Assembly (NCBI RefSeq): GCF_900112315.1
Contig: NZ_FOLL01000003.1
Location: forward strand, 186,001-250,000
DNA: 64,000 nt
Direction of reading: 5' to 3'
Source: Parapedobacter composti
GTDB taxonomy: Bacteria; Bacteroidota; Bacteroidia; Sphingobacteriales; Sphingobacteriaceae
Program-made: the position numbers and the translations under genes
Shown here: positions 34,451 through 41,702 of the stretch, one piece after another
Numbering within the stretch: position 1 is the stretch's first letter
Layout: every line of letters starts with the position of its first letter
Notes under the pieces: model-generated
Told to the model about the DNA's origin: nothing
Databases searched by the model: none
What the model saw: the letters and a program-made list of their open reading frames with translations, nothing else

Positions 34451-34512
34451 GCCCGCATGTTGTGCTGTTACCAGCGCTTTCTCGCGAGGGAGCTGGTAAC
34501 GGCCTTTCGGGC
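34451..34512 (+). repeat. Nested hairpin after the CE15 gene
   Basis: GTTACCAGC (34467-34475) pairs perfectly with GCTGGTAAC (34492-34500), and GCCCG (34451-34455) with CGGGC (34508-34512) closes an outer stem. No T-run follows, so factor-independent termination is uncertain. Confidence 0.55.
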
Positions 34513-34584
34513 AGTAAACTTCACAATAAGCTAATCTTAGGTCAATGCCGGCTTGATGTTGCTGCTGTATCCTTGCCCGGTGTA

Positions 34585-35211
34585 ATGGAGCGACATACAG
34601 ACGCCGATTTGCTGGCGTTGATTCGGCAAGACGATCATCAGGCATTCAGCCGGCTGATGGGAAAATACCGCGCAGCGCTGGTAGGCTATATACGCAAGCG
34701 GGTGGGGAGCGGTCAGGAGGCCGAAGACCACGTGCAGGACATTTTTCTCTCCTTATGGCAAAACAGGCATCAGGTCGGCCCCGACCCTTCGGGCAGCCTG
34801 GCGGGTTACCTTTATACCGCTGCCAAATATACCGTCATTGACTGCTATGCCAAGCGCAGGGCTGAAGTTCCCTATGGCGATATGCTCGGCGAGATTCTCG
34901 ATATTGCGGCGCATGAGCGGGTCGATACGGATTACCTGGTCGCCGAGTTGCAGGCCATCATCGGCCATGAAGTTGCACAGATGCCCGGTCGGCTCCGGCA
35001 AGTCTATCAGCTGAGCCGTGAAGAAAACCTTTCCATCAAAGAAATCGCCCTTCAGCTCATGCTGTCCGAGCAGACGATAAAGAACAACATTTCGGCCGCG
35101 CTGTACCAGCTGCGCAGCGCCATCCGCCGGTATAAGGAGGGCGTTTTGGCCGCCGTGATCCTCCTCCGGTTTGCCATCCAGTTATTTAACGATTGTTTAA
35201 CCTTGCTTTAA
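34585..35211 (+). CDS. ECF RNA polymerase sigma factor (locus 2)
   Basis: 208 residues from ATG 34585; the open frame upstream to 34462 is not sigma-like. Region 2 (LMGKYRAALVGYIRKRV, EDHVQDIFLSLWQNR) and region 4 (LPGRL-like, LSREENLSIKEIALQLMLS, EQTIKNNIS) are present. A C-terminal hydrophobic stretch (about 185-205, VLAAVILLRFAIQLF) follows, as in many sigma factors of this Bacteroidota group. It is paired with the FecR 35 bp downstream and should control susC, susD and the HD gene. Confidence 0.93.
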   Translation: MERHTDADLLALIRQDDHQAFSRLMGKYRAALVGYIRKRVGSGQEAEDHVQDIFLSLWQNRHQVGPDPSGSLAGYLYTAAKYTVIDCYAKRRAEVPYGDMLGEILDIAAHERVDTDYLVAELQAIIGHEVAQMPGRLRQVYQLSREENLSIKEIALQLMLSEQTIKNNISAALYQLRSAIRRYKEGVLAAVILLRFAIQLFNDCLTLL

Positions 35212-35246: not shown

Positions 35247-36221
35247 ATGGAAGACAACAAACCAAACGACCAGCAGATCCGGGATCTGCTGCGGCGCTAC
35301 GTAGCCGGCGAGGCCAGCGATGCCGAGCGCCGGGCAGTAGATGCCTGGTACCGCCTTTTTGTCGATCAGGCCCCGGCGCCGCAGGCAGAAGAGGCGGAGG
35401 GGCCGCGCGCCACGGGGGCCGCAACGGCTACGCCTCCAGCCCGGCCGGGTGTTTTCCGGCGCTACCGCTGGTGGGCGGTGGCCGCATCGCTGCTGGTTGC
35501 CGTATGGTGGGGCGGCACGCTGCTGTTGCGGAGTGGCCACGAGCCGCAGGGCAACGATAGCGCCACCGTGCGCCTTTTCAGCAGCGCCGAACACCGCAAA
35601 CGGATCGAGCTGCCGGACGGCACCGTGGTGATGCTCAATGTACACAGCCAGCTCGAAGTGCCCGAAGACTTTAACGCCGGCCATCGGCATGTGGCGCTTA
35701 CCGGCGAGGCATTCTTCGATGTCGCCAGGATGCCGGAAAGCCCCTTTTCTGTGCGGTCCGGCCTGCTTACCACGCGGGTGCTGGGCACGTCCTTCAATGT
35801 AGAGGGGTATGCCGAAGATAAAACGGTGAAGGTCGCCGTGGTAAGCGGGCTTGTCGAGGTGTCGAAAGCCACGGCCGGCAAACCCGATTCGCTGTTGTCC
35901 GGGGGCATCGCCAGAAACCAGACCCTTACCTTCCGGAAAGACGACGGTTCGGTAGCCATCCGGACCGAAGACAGCCGCCTCATCAGCGCCTGGCAAACGG
36001 GCGAGCTGGATATTAACAGGCTCACCCTGCCCGAGCTGGGCCACAAGCTGGCCCGCCATTTCAACCGCACGCTCGTCATCGACCCGCGGTTGACCGATGA
36101 TACACGGTATACGATACATTTCGCCAACGAAAATCTACGGGAAATCATGGACGTGCTTGCCGAAATGACCCATGCAAATTTTGAAGAGAAAGGAGGTAAA
36201 TTGTTGATACAGCCCAACTAA
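35247..36221 (+). CDS. FecR-family anti-sigma/regulator protein (locus 2)
   Basis: 324 residues. The cytoplasmic part (1-75) is followed by one helix (about 78-94), a FecR domain (GEAFFDVARMPESPFSV, VLGTSFNVEGY) and a C-terminal DUF4974-like domain (LRRIMD-like, here ENLREIMDVLAEM). It receives the signal from the STN domain of the adjacent SusC and controls the sigma factor upstream. GC is notably high. It is followed by a GC-rich hairpin before susC. Confidence 0.93.
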   Translation: MEDNKPNDQQIRDLLRRYVAGEASDAERRAVDAWYRLFVDQAPAPQAEEAEGPRATGAATATPPARPGVFRRYRWWAVAASLLVAVWWGGTLLLRSGHEPQGNDSATVRLFSSAEHRKRIELPDGTVVMLNVHSQLEVPEDFNAGHRHVALTGEAFFDVARMPESPFSVRSGLLTTRVLGTSFNVEGYAEDKTVKVAVVSGLVEVSKATAGKPDSLLSGGIARNQTLTFRKDDGSVAIRTEDSRLISAWQTGELDINRLTLPELGHKLARHFNRTLVIDPRLTDDTRYTIHFANENLREIMDVLAEMTHANFEEKGGKLLIQPN

Positions 36222-36227
36222 AAAAAA

Positions 36228-36251
36228 CCGGGCGAAGTGCCGCTCGCCCGG
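36228..36251 (+). repeat. GC-rich hairpin between fecR and susC (locus 2)
   Basis: CCGGGCGA/TCGCCCGG, a perfect 8-bp stem with an 8-nt loop, preceded by a run of eight A right after the fecR stop and followed by a weak AATCTTTC. It corresponds in place and sequence to the hairpin of locus 1. Confidence 0.7.
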
Positions 36252-36306: not shown

Positions 36307-39300
36307 ATGCAAAAAACTTTAAGTTATACCAATATTTTATTCAGGATGAAACTTACACTTGCCATGGTGTTGGTGTCCTCCGCGGTGCTGCTGGCCAACC
36401 CACTTACGGGGCAGACGCTCAACGAGGTGACCTTGTCCATCCATGTAAAGCAAAAGGCTTTAAACGAAGTCATATCGCTTATCGAACAGAAAACGCCCTT
36501 CATCATCGGCTACAGCAGCGACGTGCTGGACGGCGACGAAAAAATCTCCGTGCAGGCAAACAACCTCAGCGTGGCCGACGTGCTGGCGATGATTACCGGG
36601 CCGCGCAACGTATCGTTCCGGCAGGTGTCTGAAAGGTATGTGCTTATCGAGCCGGCCGCAGGCCCCGGCGGTGAAGCCCAGCAGCCGGGGCCCGTACGGG
36701 GGCAGGTCACCGACAAGCACACCGGGCGCACCCTTCCCGGCATTACGGTGAAAGCGAAGGGCAGCTCCGCGGCCGCGCAGACCGATGCCAACGGCGTGTT
36801 TTCCATTGCCTTGCCCGCGGGCGAGCGGCAGCCGGTGCTGCTGTTTAGCCATGTGGGGTACCGCAGCCAAGAAGTGCCCGTCGAAGGCGATCGCCAGCAG
36901 CCGCTGCACGTACAGCTGGAGGCCGACCTGCTTGGGTTGGAAGAGGTCGTCGTCACCGGGCAGGGACTGAGCGTCTCCAAGCGGCGCCTTTCTACCAATG
37001 CCGCCGTGGTCAGCGAACGCCAGATCCGGGATGTGCCCGCCACCCGTATCGACCAGCTGCTGCAAAGCCAGCTGCCCAATGCGATGATCAAGCTGTCGGG
37101 CGGGCAGAGCGGCGCTACATCCATCATCCAGACCCGGGGGTTCAACTCGGCATTTGCCAACTCCACGCCCATCATCTACGTGGATGGCGTACGTGTAGAC
37201 AACCTCAATACCGCCCCCACGCTGGGCATGAACCTCTCCGGCGGTATCTCGCAGGGAGCTTCTACCAGCGCACTGTCCGACCTGCCGGTGGAAAACATCG
37301 AGCGTATCGAATTTATCAACGGCGGTGCCGCCACCACACTGTACGGTTCTGACGCTGCAAACGGCGTACTGCAGATTTTCACCAAGAAAAACGGCACCGG
37401 CAGGGCTTCCTTCTCCGTTGGGGCGGATATGGGCGTGGAGACCCCCACGGCCGATTTCCATTATTTCGATCGCACCAAAGACGTACTCTACCAAAACGGC
37501 TTTTACAACCGCTATACCCTCGGGCTCAACGGTAGCACGGCGGGCTTCGGATACAGCCTGACCGGTTCATTCAGCGACGCCAACGGGGTGCTCATCCACG
37601 ATCAGAACCGCCAGCGTAAATTCAATTTCCGCCTGGGCATGAATGCCCAGTTGCTGGAGGGGCTTACCTACGAGAGTTCGTTTTCTTACAGCAACCAGGG
37701 GCTGTCGCGCGTGCGCAACGGCAACTCGGGCGGGTACTCGGGGCTTTGGTTTGTAGAAGACGGTGCTTCAAAAATCATCGGGCCGGGTTTCAATCCCGTG
37801 CTGGACGAGCTGTCCGATGCCGATTTTGCAGTGTATAAGTCATTCGTCGACTCGGCCGAGCGGCTGCAAGACAACCGCTCCATGGTCAATCGTTTCCAGA
37901 CCTCGCAGTCGGTCAGCTACCGCTCGCCATCGGGCATCGTGCTCAAGGGCACGGCCGGCGTAGACTTCCGCCAGCAGCGCGAGCGATCTGCCGTGACCAT
38001 GGCCTACAACCGGCACATCCGCTCGAACAACACGGGGTCGCTGTCCAACTTCATGCGCAGCTTCCTGGGGCTCACCTTTGACCTCAATGCCCAGTATGAC
38101 TGGCAGGTAGGCGACTTTTCGTTGCTCACCACGGTGGGTGGCCAGCTCTTCCGCACCGAAGACCGCCAGGTGGCCTACATCGGCCAGGATATCCGTGATG
38201 GCGCCCAGACCATCGGCCAGGCGGCCACCCGTACCAGCAACGAGTTTTATGCCGAGGTGGCCAACTACGGGGTGTTCGTGCAGGAAAACATCGGCTACCG
38301 CAACCGCTATTTCATTGATTTCGGTGTGCGGGGCGATGGCAACTCCGCGTTCGGTTCGTCCGTGGGCATCCAGTATTACCCCAAGGTGGGGCTGTCTTAC
38401 ATCCTGAGTGCCGAACCGTTTTTCGCCGCCATGGGCCAACAGGTGCTCAACACGGTGAAGATACGGGCCAACTACGGCGTTTCCGGCAATTTCCCCACGC
38501 CCTTTGCGCATGAGCGCACCATCGCCTTCTCCGGTTTCGGCGGCGGCCAGTCGGCCACGTTTGGCCATCCCGGCAATCCCGACCTGCGGCCGGAGAAAAC
38601 CTACGCCCTGGAGATTGGCCTGGATATGGGCTTCTTCCGCGACCGGCTTTCGCTCTCGGCAAACTATTTCAACAACGAAACGCGCGACGCACTCTTCAAC
38701 GTACCACCCGCCGCCTCGTCAGGCGTAGGCAGCTCGCTGCGCAACATCGGCCGCATCGAAAACAAAGGGTTTGAAATTGCGGCCAACGCGCAGGTGGTCG
38801 ACAGCGAAAAGTGGGGGCTCAATGTCCGTGCGTCGGCCAATACGGTAGACAACATCGTTGCCAGCACGGGCGGTGCCCCGGCGTTCAACATCAACGGACT
38901 CACCTCGCGTACGGTGCAGATTGTCGTGCGCGAAGGCTATCCGGTGGGGTACATCTCCGGCAACTACGGGGTGTTTGACGAAAGCGGGTTGATGGTCGAG
39001 ACCATACCGCTGTCTTTCCTCGGGTCTACGATACCCACCCTCACGGGAAGTTTCGGTTTCAACCTCCGCTACCGGCAGCTTTCGCTGTTTGCCAACGCCG
39101 ACTACCAGCATGGCGGGTACCTCCACAACTGGGATAAGCAGTTCCGCATCAACTACGGCGCTTCCACCGCAGGCGTTCCGGCGGCCGAAATCGAGCAGAA
39201 CGGGTCCATGAATTGGCTGAATTACTCGCAGCTCTTCGTGGAGCGCAGCGATTTCATCAAGGTGCGGACCATCGGGCTGGTGTATAACCTCAAGGCCGGA

Positions 39301-39501
39301 GCACTTCTCCGCCGCATAAACAATGCAAGTATTGGTTTTACGGCCGTAAATCCGCTGAATTTCACCGCATCGGCCTCCGATCCCGAAGCCGTAATGCCCG
39401 GCGGGGCGCAGGGGCAAGGCTCAGCAACCACCGGCGGCATCAACTATGCCGCACATTCGGCGGCGCGCCAGTTTCTCCTTTCGCTCAAGTTCAGTTTGTA
39501 A
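36307..39501 (+). CDS. SusC/RagA TonB-dependent transporter with STN domain (locus 2)
   Basis: 1064 residues. A signal region (MKLTLAMVLVSSAVLLA inside the first 35 residues; ATG 36346 is an alternative start) is followed by an STN domain (about 45-115), a carboxypeptidase-like domain (about 128-205) and a plug with a divergent RagA motif (EEVVVTGQGLSVSKRRLSTN). A barrel follows, ending in FLLSLKFSL. It should import the locus substrate and signal to FecR. It forms an operon with susD (18 bp) and the exported HD protein. Confidence 0.93.
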   Translation: MQKTLSYTNILFRMKLTLAMVLVSSAVLLANPLTGQTLNEVTLSIHVKQKALNEVISLIEQKTPFIIGYSSDVLDGDEKISVQANNLSVADVLAMITGPRNVSFRQVSERYVLIEPAAGPGGEAQQPGPVRGQVTDKHTGRTLPGITVKAKGSSAAAQTDANGVFSIALPAGERQPVLLFSHVGYRSQEVPVEGDRQQPLHVQLEADLLGLEEVVVTGQGLSVSKRRLSTNAAVVSERQIRDVPATRIDQLLQSQLPNAMIKLSGGQSGATSIIQTRGFNSAFANSTPIIYVDGVRVDNLNTAPTLGMNLSGGISQGASTSALSDLPVENIERIEFINGGAATTLYGSDAANGVLQIFTKKNGTGRASFSVGADMGVETPTADFHYFDRTKDVLYQNGFYNRYTLGLNGSTAGFGYSLTGSFSDANGVLIHDQNRQRKFNFRLGMNAQLLEGLTYESSFSYSNQGLSRVRNGNSGGYSGLWFVEDGASKIIGPGFNPVLDELSDADFAVYKSFVDSAERLQDNRSMVNRFQTSQSVSYRSPSGIVLKGTAGVDFRQQRERSAVTMAYNRHIRSNNTGSLSNFMRSFLGLTFDLNAQYDWQVGDFSLLTTVGGQLFRTEDRQVAYIGQDIRDGAQTIGQAATRTSNEFYAEVANYGVFVQENIGYRNRYFIDFGVRGDGNSAFGSSVGIQYYPKVGLSYILSAEPFFAAMGQQVLNTVKIRANYGVSGNFPTPFAHERTIAFSGFGGGQSATFGHPGNPDLRPEKTYALEIGLDMGFFRDRLSLSANYFNNETRDALFNVPPAASSGVGSSLRNIGRIENKGFEIAANAQVVDSEKWGLNVRASANTVDNIVASTGGAPAFNINGLTSRTVQIVVREGYPVGYISGNYGVFDESGLMVETIPLSFLGSTIPTLTGSFGFNLRYRQLSLFANADYQHGGYLHNWDKQFRINYGASTAGVPAAEIEQNGSMNWLNYSQLFVERSDFIKVRTIGLVYNLKAGALLRRINNASIGFTAVNPLNFTASASDPEAVMPGGAQGQGSATTGGINYAAHSAARQFLLSLKFSL

Positions 39502-39519: not shown

Positions 39520-40950
39520 ATGAAAACGACCCTCACATGGATAACACTAGCACTTGCCGCGACGGTTTCGTCGTGCTCGCTGGTGGAAGTCGAAAACCCC
39601 AATATTACCGACGAGACATTCCTCGGCACGCCCGAGTCGGCCGAAGTATGGTTGAACGGCTTGCAGAAGCAGCTTGCCCAGACGCTCAACCAGACCGTGG
39701 TGTTTGCCGAGATGGTGTCTGACAATTATTACAACAACAGCTCGTTGTCCAACCAAGTGTTTGACATCCCCACGTTGCTGCCCGAAGACCTGGATATAGA
39801 CAACGTGCAGCGCGAGCTTGCCCGGCTGCGCGCCATGGCCGTGTACGGCGTGGAAAGGGTGGTACCCGCCGCCGCGGACGGCACCCGCGAACAGCTGGCC
39901 GAGATGTACTTCTATGCGGCCTATGCCAGCCTGCTGAGCGGTGAGCTGTTTGCCTCGCTGCCGGCCGTAGAAGCGGGCCCCGTGTTGCCGGCTACGGCCC
40001 ACCTTGAAAACGCGGTCGGCTACCTGCAGCAGGGCCTGTCGCTGACCGCCGATGCAGGCCGGCGTACGGTCTATACGCTCGCGCTGGCGCGGGCCTACCA
40101 TGGGCTGGGCGACCGGCAGCGCGCGGCACAGCTGGCACAGGAGGTCATTGCGGCCGATCCGCTGGTGCTGCGCAACGCCGTCTTTGACGGGCTCAACGGT
40201 GCATCGAACCTGATGCAGACCTATACCTTCAGCAGCTCCACGAATACGCTGGCGCCCCTGCCGAGGCTTGATTTTCTTGATCCCAAGTACTTCCACGTCG
40301 GCAACGCCAGTGCCGACCAGAAGCCGATAGCTTTGCTGAAAGGCGAGGAAGCCTTCCTCATCGCCGCGGAGGCCGCCATCGGCAACGGCGACCTGCCCGG
40401 AGCGAAGGCGCTGCTGACCCGGTTAGTCGGCGAGGTCGTGTCGGCGCGGCCGGTGGCGTCTGTCGATGGCCGCCATGCCGAGCGCAAGGGTACGCGCAGC
40501 GACTACCCCCTGTCGGCCGCCACCAAGGTGCGGTTTGCGCCGGGCGGCCCGTTGCGGGAAGGGCTGGTGCTGGGCCGGGGCGATGGCAACATTACCGTGC
40601 ACCGCGTATCGGGCACCTCCGTGACGGAAGCGGAGATTGCCGCTGCCGGCGATGCCGATGCGCTGCTGTACCTGCTGTGCCTGCTCCGGCAGGAGATCTT
40701 CATGTCCGAGGGGCGGCGCATGACCGATCTGGGCATCCGGTTTCCGATATCAACCATCGAGCAGCAGAACAATCCCAACGTCAGCGCCCAGGACACGCGG
40801 GCCACGATACCGCCCTTTATCCCCGGCCAGTTGGGCATGGACGACTTTGAGCACGACGAGGCTGCGGGCGTTGTGACCATCCTGCACGATATAAACCGGG
40901 TGTTGGTAGCAAATAAGGCCAGTGCCGGCATACTGCCGCTGGTAAAATAA
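39520..40950 (+). CDS. SusD-like nutrient-binding lipoprotein (locus 2)
   Basis: 476 residues with lipobox VSSC (Cys19). It belongs to the SusD-like branch with a short N-terminal VENPNITDETFLGTPESAE motif and helical repeats (ALARAYHGLGDRQRAAQLAQ). The sequence is more divergent from classical SusD than the other two in the window. It should form the surface lid for the SusC encoded 18 bp upstream. The next gene starts 20 bp later, with no terminator until 41669. Confidence 0.87.
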   Translation: MKTTLTWITLALAATVSSCSLVEVENPNITDETFLGTPESAEVWLNGLQKQLAQTLNQTVVFAEMVSDNYYNNSSLSNQVFDIPTLLPEDLDIDNVQRELARLRAMAVYGVERVVPAAADGTREQLAEMYFYAAYASLLSGELFASLPAVEAGPVLPATAHLENAVGYLQQGLSLTADAGRRTVYTLALARAYHGLGDRQRAAQLAQEVIAADPLVLRNAVFDGLNGASNLMQTYTFSSSTNTLAPLPRLDFLDPKYFHVGNASADQKPIALLKGEEAFLIAAEAAIGNGDLPGAKALLTRLVGEVVSARPVASVDGRHAERKGTRSDYPLSAATKVRFAPGGPLREGLVLGRGDGNITVHRVSGTSVTEAEIAAAGDADALLYLLCLLRQEIFMSEGRRMTDLGIRFPISTIEQQNNPNVSAQDTRATIPPFIPGQLGMDDFEHDEAAGVVTILHDINRVLVANKASAGILPLVK

Positions 40951-40970: not shown

Positions 40971-41660
40971 ATGAAACATGCATTCCTATTTTTGCTGGTG
41001 ATGGCTACCACATTGGCAAATGCCGTGGCAGACGATGGCGCCCGGCTCAAAGCGACTTATTTGGAGATATTAAAGCCTTACGGGGCCGATGAGGCGCTGC
41101 TGGATCGGTGCTGGGAGGAAGTGGTGGAGGCCTATACCGGCCCCCGGCGGCATTACCACAACCTGGAGCACCTGGCCAACTTTGAGCGGCATCTGCACAG
41201 CTGCAAGGACAGCCTCGAAGATTTCGAAACGGCCTACCTGGCGATGATCTACCACGATGTGGTATACTTCACCACCGACGGCACGAACGAAGACCAAAGC
41301 GCGGCCTTTGCCGACCGCCACCTGGCGCTGTTGGGCTATCCCGCAGATAAGGTAGCGCGCTGCCACGCCTTGATTATGGCTACCAAGACCCATGCCGGCA
41401 GCACCGATAGCGACACGAATTACTTCGTGGATGCGGATATGGCCATTCTTGGCGCGGATCCCGCCGCATACCAGCGGTACGTAGCCAATATCCGGCAAGA
41501 ATACGGGGCGTCGCCCCAGTTTGACCGGGGCAGGCAGCGTGTGCTGCAGCACTTCCTTGATATGGACCGGCTCTTTAAGACCGATTTGTTTTTTGATCGG
41601 TTTGAAAAGCAAGCCCGCAAAAACATTGCGGCAGAGCTCCGGTCATTGCAAGCAAACTAA
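40971..41660 (+). CDS. Exported HD-superfamily metal-dependent hydrolase (COG4339-like)
   Basis: 229 residues. The body matches predicted HD phosphohydrolases of the COG4339 type: RRHYHNLEHL (H61, H63, H67), Y-H95-D96 (AMIYHDVVY), THAGS (H141) and DADMAILG (D154, D156) supply candidate metal ligands. These proteins are normally cytoplasmic, but this one opens with MKHAFLFLLVMATTLANAVA, a good signal peptide with cleavage near A20-D21. It is the last gene of the susC-susD operon, before a strong terminator, so it likely acts in the periplasm or at the surface on the imported compound. The substrate is unknown. Confidence 0.82.
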   Translation: MKHAFLFLLVMATTLANAVADDGARLKATYLEILKPYGADEALLDRCWEEVVEAYTGPRRHYHNLEHLANFERHLHSCKDSLEDFETAYLAMIYHDVVYFTTDGTNEDQSAAFADRHLALLGYPADKVARCHALIMATKTHAGSTDSDTNYFVDADMAILGADPAAYQRYVANIRQEYGASPQFDRGRQRVLQHFLDMDRLFKTDLFFDRFEKQARKNIAAELRSLQAN

Positions 41661-41668
41661 TCACCATA

Positions 41669-41702
41669 CAGCAGCGGGCCATTACGGCCCGCTGCTGTTT
41701 TT
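41669..41702 (+). terminator. Terminator closing the locus 2 operon
   Basis: A perfect 12-bp stem CAGCAGCGGGCC/GGCCCGCTGCTG (41669-41680 with 41686-41697), loop ATTAC, followed by TTTTT. It separates the HD gene from the GH95 gene. Confidence 0.9.

Follow-up and report, generated by a model that had tools for sequence, protein, structure and literature searches.

In Flavobacterium, Pus loci combine a SusC/SusD pair with an ECF sigma factor and periplasmic phosphodiesterases, and they are induced by phosphate depletion (PMC8115612). These phosphate utilisation systems, the PusCD loci of Flavobacterium johnsoniae, are predicted to take up organic phosphorus (PMC8115612). The operon described here lies in a 64,000-nucleotide stretch of Parapedobacter composti DNA, referred to as the window. 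It resembles the Pus loci in its SusC/SusD pair, its ECF sigma factor, its putative exported phosphodiesterase, and its predicted role in uptake of organic phosphorus. It differs from them in that its SusD falls outside the Pfam SusD models and its hydrolase is an HD protein, and the comparison is one of locus content, not of orthology to PusCD1-6. An initial annotation of the window had proposed an undescribed system. This proposal is retained for the HD variant, which is new, but not for the type of locus, because SusCD loci that are regulated by phosphate and include periplasmic phosphodiesterases (Pus) have already been described (PMC8115612). The literature searched contained nothing on COG4339 and nothing on an HD protein accompanying SusD, and it yielded no description of the exported HD enzyme, of this SusD branch, or of the three-way exchange of hydrolases reported below. 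We favor the explanation, with a probability of roughly 60%, that the operon is a Pus-like phosphorus-acquisition unit under sigma/FecR control that imports phosphodiesters and cleaves them with a periplasmic HD phosphodiesterase.

The window operon and its relatives

The features of the operon are collected in Table 1. All genes are on the same strand, with gaps of 35, 85, and 18 nt between the sigma factor, FecR, SusC, and SusD genes, followed by 20 nt between the susD stop at 40950 and the start of the HD gene. The HD open reading frame begins with MKHAFLFLLVMATTLANAVA, after which the predicted mature protein starts with DD. The initial annotation had placed an HD hydrolase gene with a signal peptide 20 bp after susD and directly before a strong terminator, beside an ECF/FecR pair and a divergent SusC/SusD. 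The reading frame, leader, and terminator were all confirmed, as were the upstream genes, by Pfam and TIGR04056 for all except SusD, whose assignment is discussed below. An orthologue of the sigma factor is found at the matching position at four other loci (L033, L036, L037, and L097). Between fecR and susC, positions 36228-36251 contain a GC-rich inverted repeat with a T-run on the minus strand.

Table 1. Features of the five-gene unit in the window.
Feature	Position	Strand	Basis or remark
ECF sigma factor	34462..35211	+	Pfam Sigma70_r2 and Sigma70_r4_2; true start possibly further in
FecR-type anti-sigma factor	35247..36221	+	Pfam FecR and FecR_C
SusC-like TonB-dependent transporter with STN signalling domain	36307..39501	+	TIGR04056 above cut-off; STN, Plug, barrel
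Divergent SusD-like surface lipoprotein	39520..40950	+	Lipobox, position, C-terminal motif, 35 orthologues
Exported HD-superfamily protein, class I PDE-like fold, 229 aa	40971..41660	+	Leader, HD profile match, fold model
Export signal, ~20 residues	40971..41030	+	Likely cut between AVA and DD; best 12-residue hydropathy 2.4; -3/-1 rule
Intrinsic terminator closing the unit	41668..41698	+	13-pair stem, 10 GC pairs, T-run

The five-gene unit (sigma factor, FecR, SusC, SusD, and HD protein) also occurs in Parapedobacter luteus, where the HD protein is 99% identical, as well as in three genomes from a second genus of this family (G178, G119, and G822), where it is 46-50% identical. Found in five genomes and two genera, the unit is more than a chance arrangement. 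All five HD proteins linked to this SusD carry a hydrophobic leader. The best 12-residue hydropathy is 2.4-3.0 for the four leaders measured, and the leader of G822 (MKLNRLNIQILVIILLFTISTNVFAQ) is equally clear by eye. By contrast, such a leader is absent from all of about 43 HD homologues in the family and class that do not adjoin this SusD, their maximum hydropathy being 1.3; leaders were called by hydropathy and the -3/-1 rule rather than by a trained predictor. No leader-bearing HD protein was seen outside the two genera among 295 class-level genomes, in which the start was unreadable at a few loci. Apart from P. luteus, a scan of genome contigs with the HD protein returned just one distant homologue, in Capsulimonas.

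The initial annotation regarded homologues lacking a signal peptide or a link to susCD as evidence against its proposal. Leader and linkage in fact coincide, but the leaderless, unlinked homologue is the commonest form, so the term exported is true of one branch only. The leaderless COG4339-type proteins belong to the same sequence family, at no more than 57% identity, and share its invariant residues; they differ in lacking the leader and in being unlinked to this SusCD. The cleavage site is not clear-cut in the sequences of the G178 and G119 proteins, which could be membrane-anchored.

A leader that is untranslated or non-functional would leave the HD protein in the cytoplasm, made from an internal start codon. 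Potential starts of this kind are present in the window gene (GTG and ATG at codons 10 and 11), in G178 (ATG at codon 27), and in G119 (ATG at codon 25), and the nearest relatives, L034 and L035, have no leader. However, every linked gene has kept a hydrophobic leader despite differing sequence, and the upstream starts lie only 8-20 nt past susD. The G822 leader contains no internal ATG and must therefore be translated, unless a GTG at codon 31 is used. Given these observations, a cytoplasmic protein is very improbable.

A tree of the HD proteins, with the leader left out, groups the five exported proteins with the leaderless L034 and L035 in one clade (100/99), within which the window protein lies nearer to L034 and L035. 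A single exported clade was rejected (p-AU 0.022), which implies either two gains of the leader or one gain and one loss. HD proteins of the same family are also encoded on about 20 viral contigs (L142-L160), many of them longer than 100 kb.

Exchange of the gene behind susD

None of the Pfam SusD models passes for the SusD of the operon. Its assignment is based on position, the lipobox, the C-terminal motif RQEIFMSEGRRMTDLG, and weak profile matches to solved SusD/RagB chains (E 0.014-0.07). A predicted structure built from two near-identical sequences only is of poor quality (pLDDT 40). Pfam SusD_RagB matches 73 times in the window genome but misses this SusD. Searches with it recovered orthologues in 35 genomes. 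At one locus (L081, G617:C30:76873-78268), a stop or frameshift divides the susD of an NPP-type unit into two frames.

In 32 of these 35 genomes, comprising every SusD orthologue at about 43% identity or above, susD is immediately followed by a gene for an exported member of a phosphoesterase family. The other three genomes form a divergent flavobacterial branch with no such gene after susD. The third gene is an HD protein in 5 genomes, a PF01663 phosphodiesterase/nucleotide pyrophosphatase (NPP) in 14 (the unit with the split susD included), and a MetallophosN/C calcineurin-like protein in 11, while 2 genomes have both of the latter types in tandem; these assignments were made by Pfam on representatives and by blastp or tblastn identity for the rest. 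In the SusD tree, the HD units are one clade (100/98). The units with calcineurin-like and NPP-type genes in tandem after susD (L108 and L109) lie beside the calcineurin-like ones. The PF01663 and MetallophosN/C enzymes of the sister operons thus share with the HD protein their slot, an orthologous operon, and export, but not their folds, which are unrelated. As in Pus loci, a SusC/SusD pair is clustered with an exported phosphodi- or phosphomonoesterase family in these 32 units, the activity of the HD protein being predicted.

As a control, the best 30 of the 73 PF07980 SusD genes in the window genome were examined, and none is followed by an HD, PF01663, or MetallophosN/C gene. At one control locus (L179), the next gene resembles the endonuclease/exonuclease/phosphatase type by eye. 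Operons near the sister loci encode PI-PLC-C1, GDPD, PF04185 phospholipase C, phytase, and GDPD/alkaline phosphatase (five loci, without a background count). That unrelated folds replace one another in a single slot points to a shared reaction, which would be phosphoester cleavage and, most simply, phosphodiester cleavage. Because unrelated exported phosphodiesterases fill the slot in sister operons, the operon is likely to capture molecules containing phosphorus and to cleave them. The initial annotation had suggested that the exported HD hydrolase serves the uptake of a phosphorylated or nucleotide-like compound, and this interpretation is largely supported, mainly by the NPP-type and calcineurin-like enzymes in the slot, evidence that is independent of the HD protein.

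The immediate neighborhood of the window unit is less suggestive of phosphorus. A CE15 gene precedes the unit and a GH95 gene follows it past the terminator; neither is a phosphorus gene, which counts against the favored explanation. SusCD pairs import mostly glycans, and the unit might take up a glycan or another carbon source that bears a phosphodiester or phosphate, such as teichoic-acid-like or phosphoglycan polymers, from which the third gene product would strip the phosphate part; removal of a phosphate group is possible for all three third-gene families. However, the unit itself contains no glycosidase, and neither CE15 nor GH95 accompanies the unit in P. luteus or in the remaining genomes, so that the unit recurs without them, a point raised in the initial annotation. 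We consider import of such a glycan quite unlikely, and uptake of a phosphodiester as a source of phosphorus is preferred.

Family, motif, and fold of the HD protein

The HD protein itself passes no curated model of Pfam or NCBIfam, and a single-sequence PDB search with it gave no match. A profile of 38 relatives matches the HD protein yedJ (3gw7, E=2.4e-4), and a weak Pfam HD match is present in 6 of 20 relatives. The protein displays the H...HD...D motif in a helical domain that characterizes the HD superfamily, with invariant H63/H67, H95-D96, and D154/D156 and an all-helical model. Residues invariant in the 38 relatives include H63, H67, H95, D96, Y99, E107, S110, I135, T138, D154, D156, and E177, whereas H141 is lost in the most distant relatives and H61 is not conserved. 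The metal ligands first proposed (H61/H63/H95/D96/H141/D154) are revised accordingly: H63, H95, and D96 are retained, H67 replaces H61, H141 is not part of the core, and the last Asp is either D154 or D156. The same pattern bears on whether the protein could be a diiron oxygenase of the MIOX/PhnZ type with an imported phosphonate or inositol compound as its substrate. Such oxygenases occur among HD folds (PMC8177086), and phosphonate-degrading enzymes are present in some Pus loci (PMC8115612). Their H...HD...H...H...D set is absent, however, as no invariant histidine lies between H95-D96 and the last Asp, which makes an oxygenase extremely improbable.

The AF2 model of the HD protein has a pLDDT of 92 and was built from 17 sequences, namely the window protein, proteins of related loci, and viral-contig homologues. 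Its best fold matches are class I phosphodiesterase (PDE) catalytic domains (PDE5, PDE2, and PDE9), with Z scores of 16-17; the best match, at Z 17.1, covers 210 of 229 residues with an rmsd of 3.9. Foldseek E-values are modest to weak (best 7.6e-3). Because these values are weak and the fold is all-helical, the likeness to PDEs rests on the long match at Z 17 together with the motifs. The alignment to PDE9 starts at model residue 15 and chain residue 204, and counting along the aligned ranges, which is not a residue-level superposition, places H63 and H67 on H252 and H256. The zinc ligands of PDE9 are H256, H292, D293, and D402 (PMC7828511). With H67 on the zinc ligand H256, the HD dyad at 95-96 would match H292-D293, as judged from the same ranges.

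The protein thus resembles class I cyclic-nucleotide PDEs (PDE5, PDE9, and others) in its near-full-length fold match (Z ~17) and in its [YF]-H-N-x-x-H and HD motifs. In contrast to them, it is shorter and exported, is only 10-16% identical, and has no Pfam PDEase_I (PF00233) match. None of 20 relatives matches PF00233 at E<=10; the family may therefore work like class I PDEs but is not a member of them, and our claim is one of likeness in fold and site. Across 247 Bacteroidota genomes, PF00233 gave a single sub-threshold match, at L192, an HD protein with C-terminal membrane segments.

HD phosphatases share the H...HD...D site (PMC8177086), and YpgQ (5dqw) is the second Foldseek match. The protein might thus be a phosphomonoesterase or a nucleotide (pyro)phosphohydrolase like YfbR or YpgQ instead of a diesterase, in which case a phosphorylated compound would still be imported. 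This alternative is unlikely, given that the longest fold coverage is with class I PDEs and that one of the alternative third genes is typed as a phosphodiesterase/nucleotide pyrophosphatase.

Proposed role and implications

Under the favored explanation of phosphodiester uptake, SusC and SusD would capture a phosphodiester at the cell surface and deliver it to the periplasm. There, the exported HD protein, a putative metal hydrolase with a class I phosphodiesterase fold, would cleave it, and the products could then be used by the cell. The periplasmic location of the HD enzyme, its use of a metal, its hydrolysis of diesters, and its role in scavenging phosphorus are each predicted from sequence. 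A broader proposal, for which our confidence falls slightly short of even, is that a normally leaderless HD family has been recruited to the Bacteroidota periplasm as a class I PDE-like phosphodiesterase, within a modular uptake operon in which any of three unrelated folds can fill the hydrolase slot.

These findings provide a functional handle on a widespread HD family, as its exported branch occupies a slot taken in related operons by members of recognised phosphoesterase families. Testable candidate substrates can therefore be named, namely lipid head groups or glycerophosphodiesters on the one hand and cyclic nucleotides or further nucleotide diesters on the other. The findings also widen the range of phosphorus-type SusCD loci to include a SusD branch that current Pfam models miss, and they indicate that such a locus can exchange its hydrolase for an unrelated fold while retaining the transporter.
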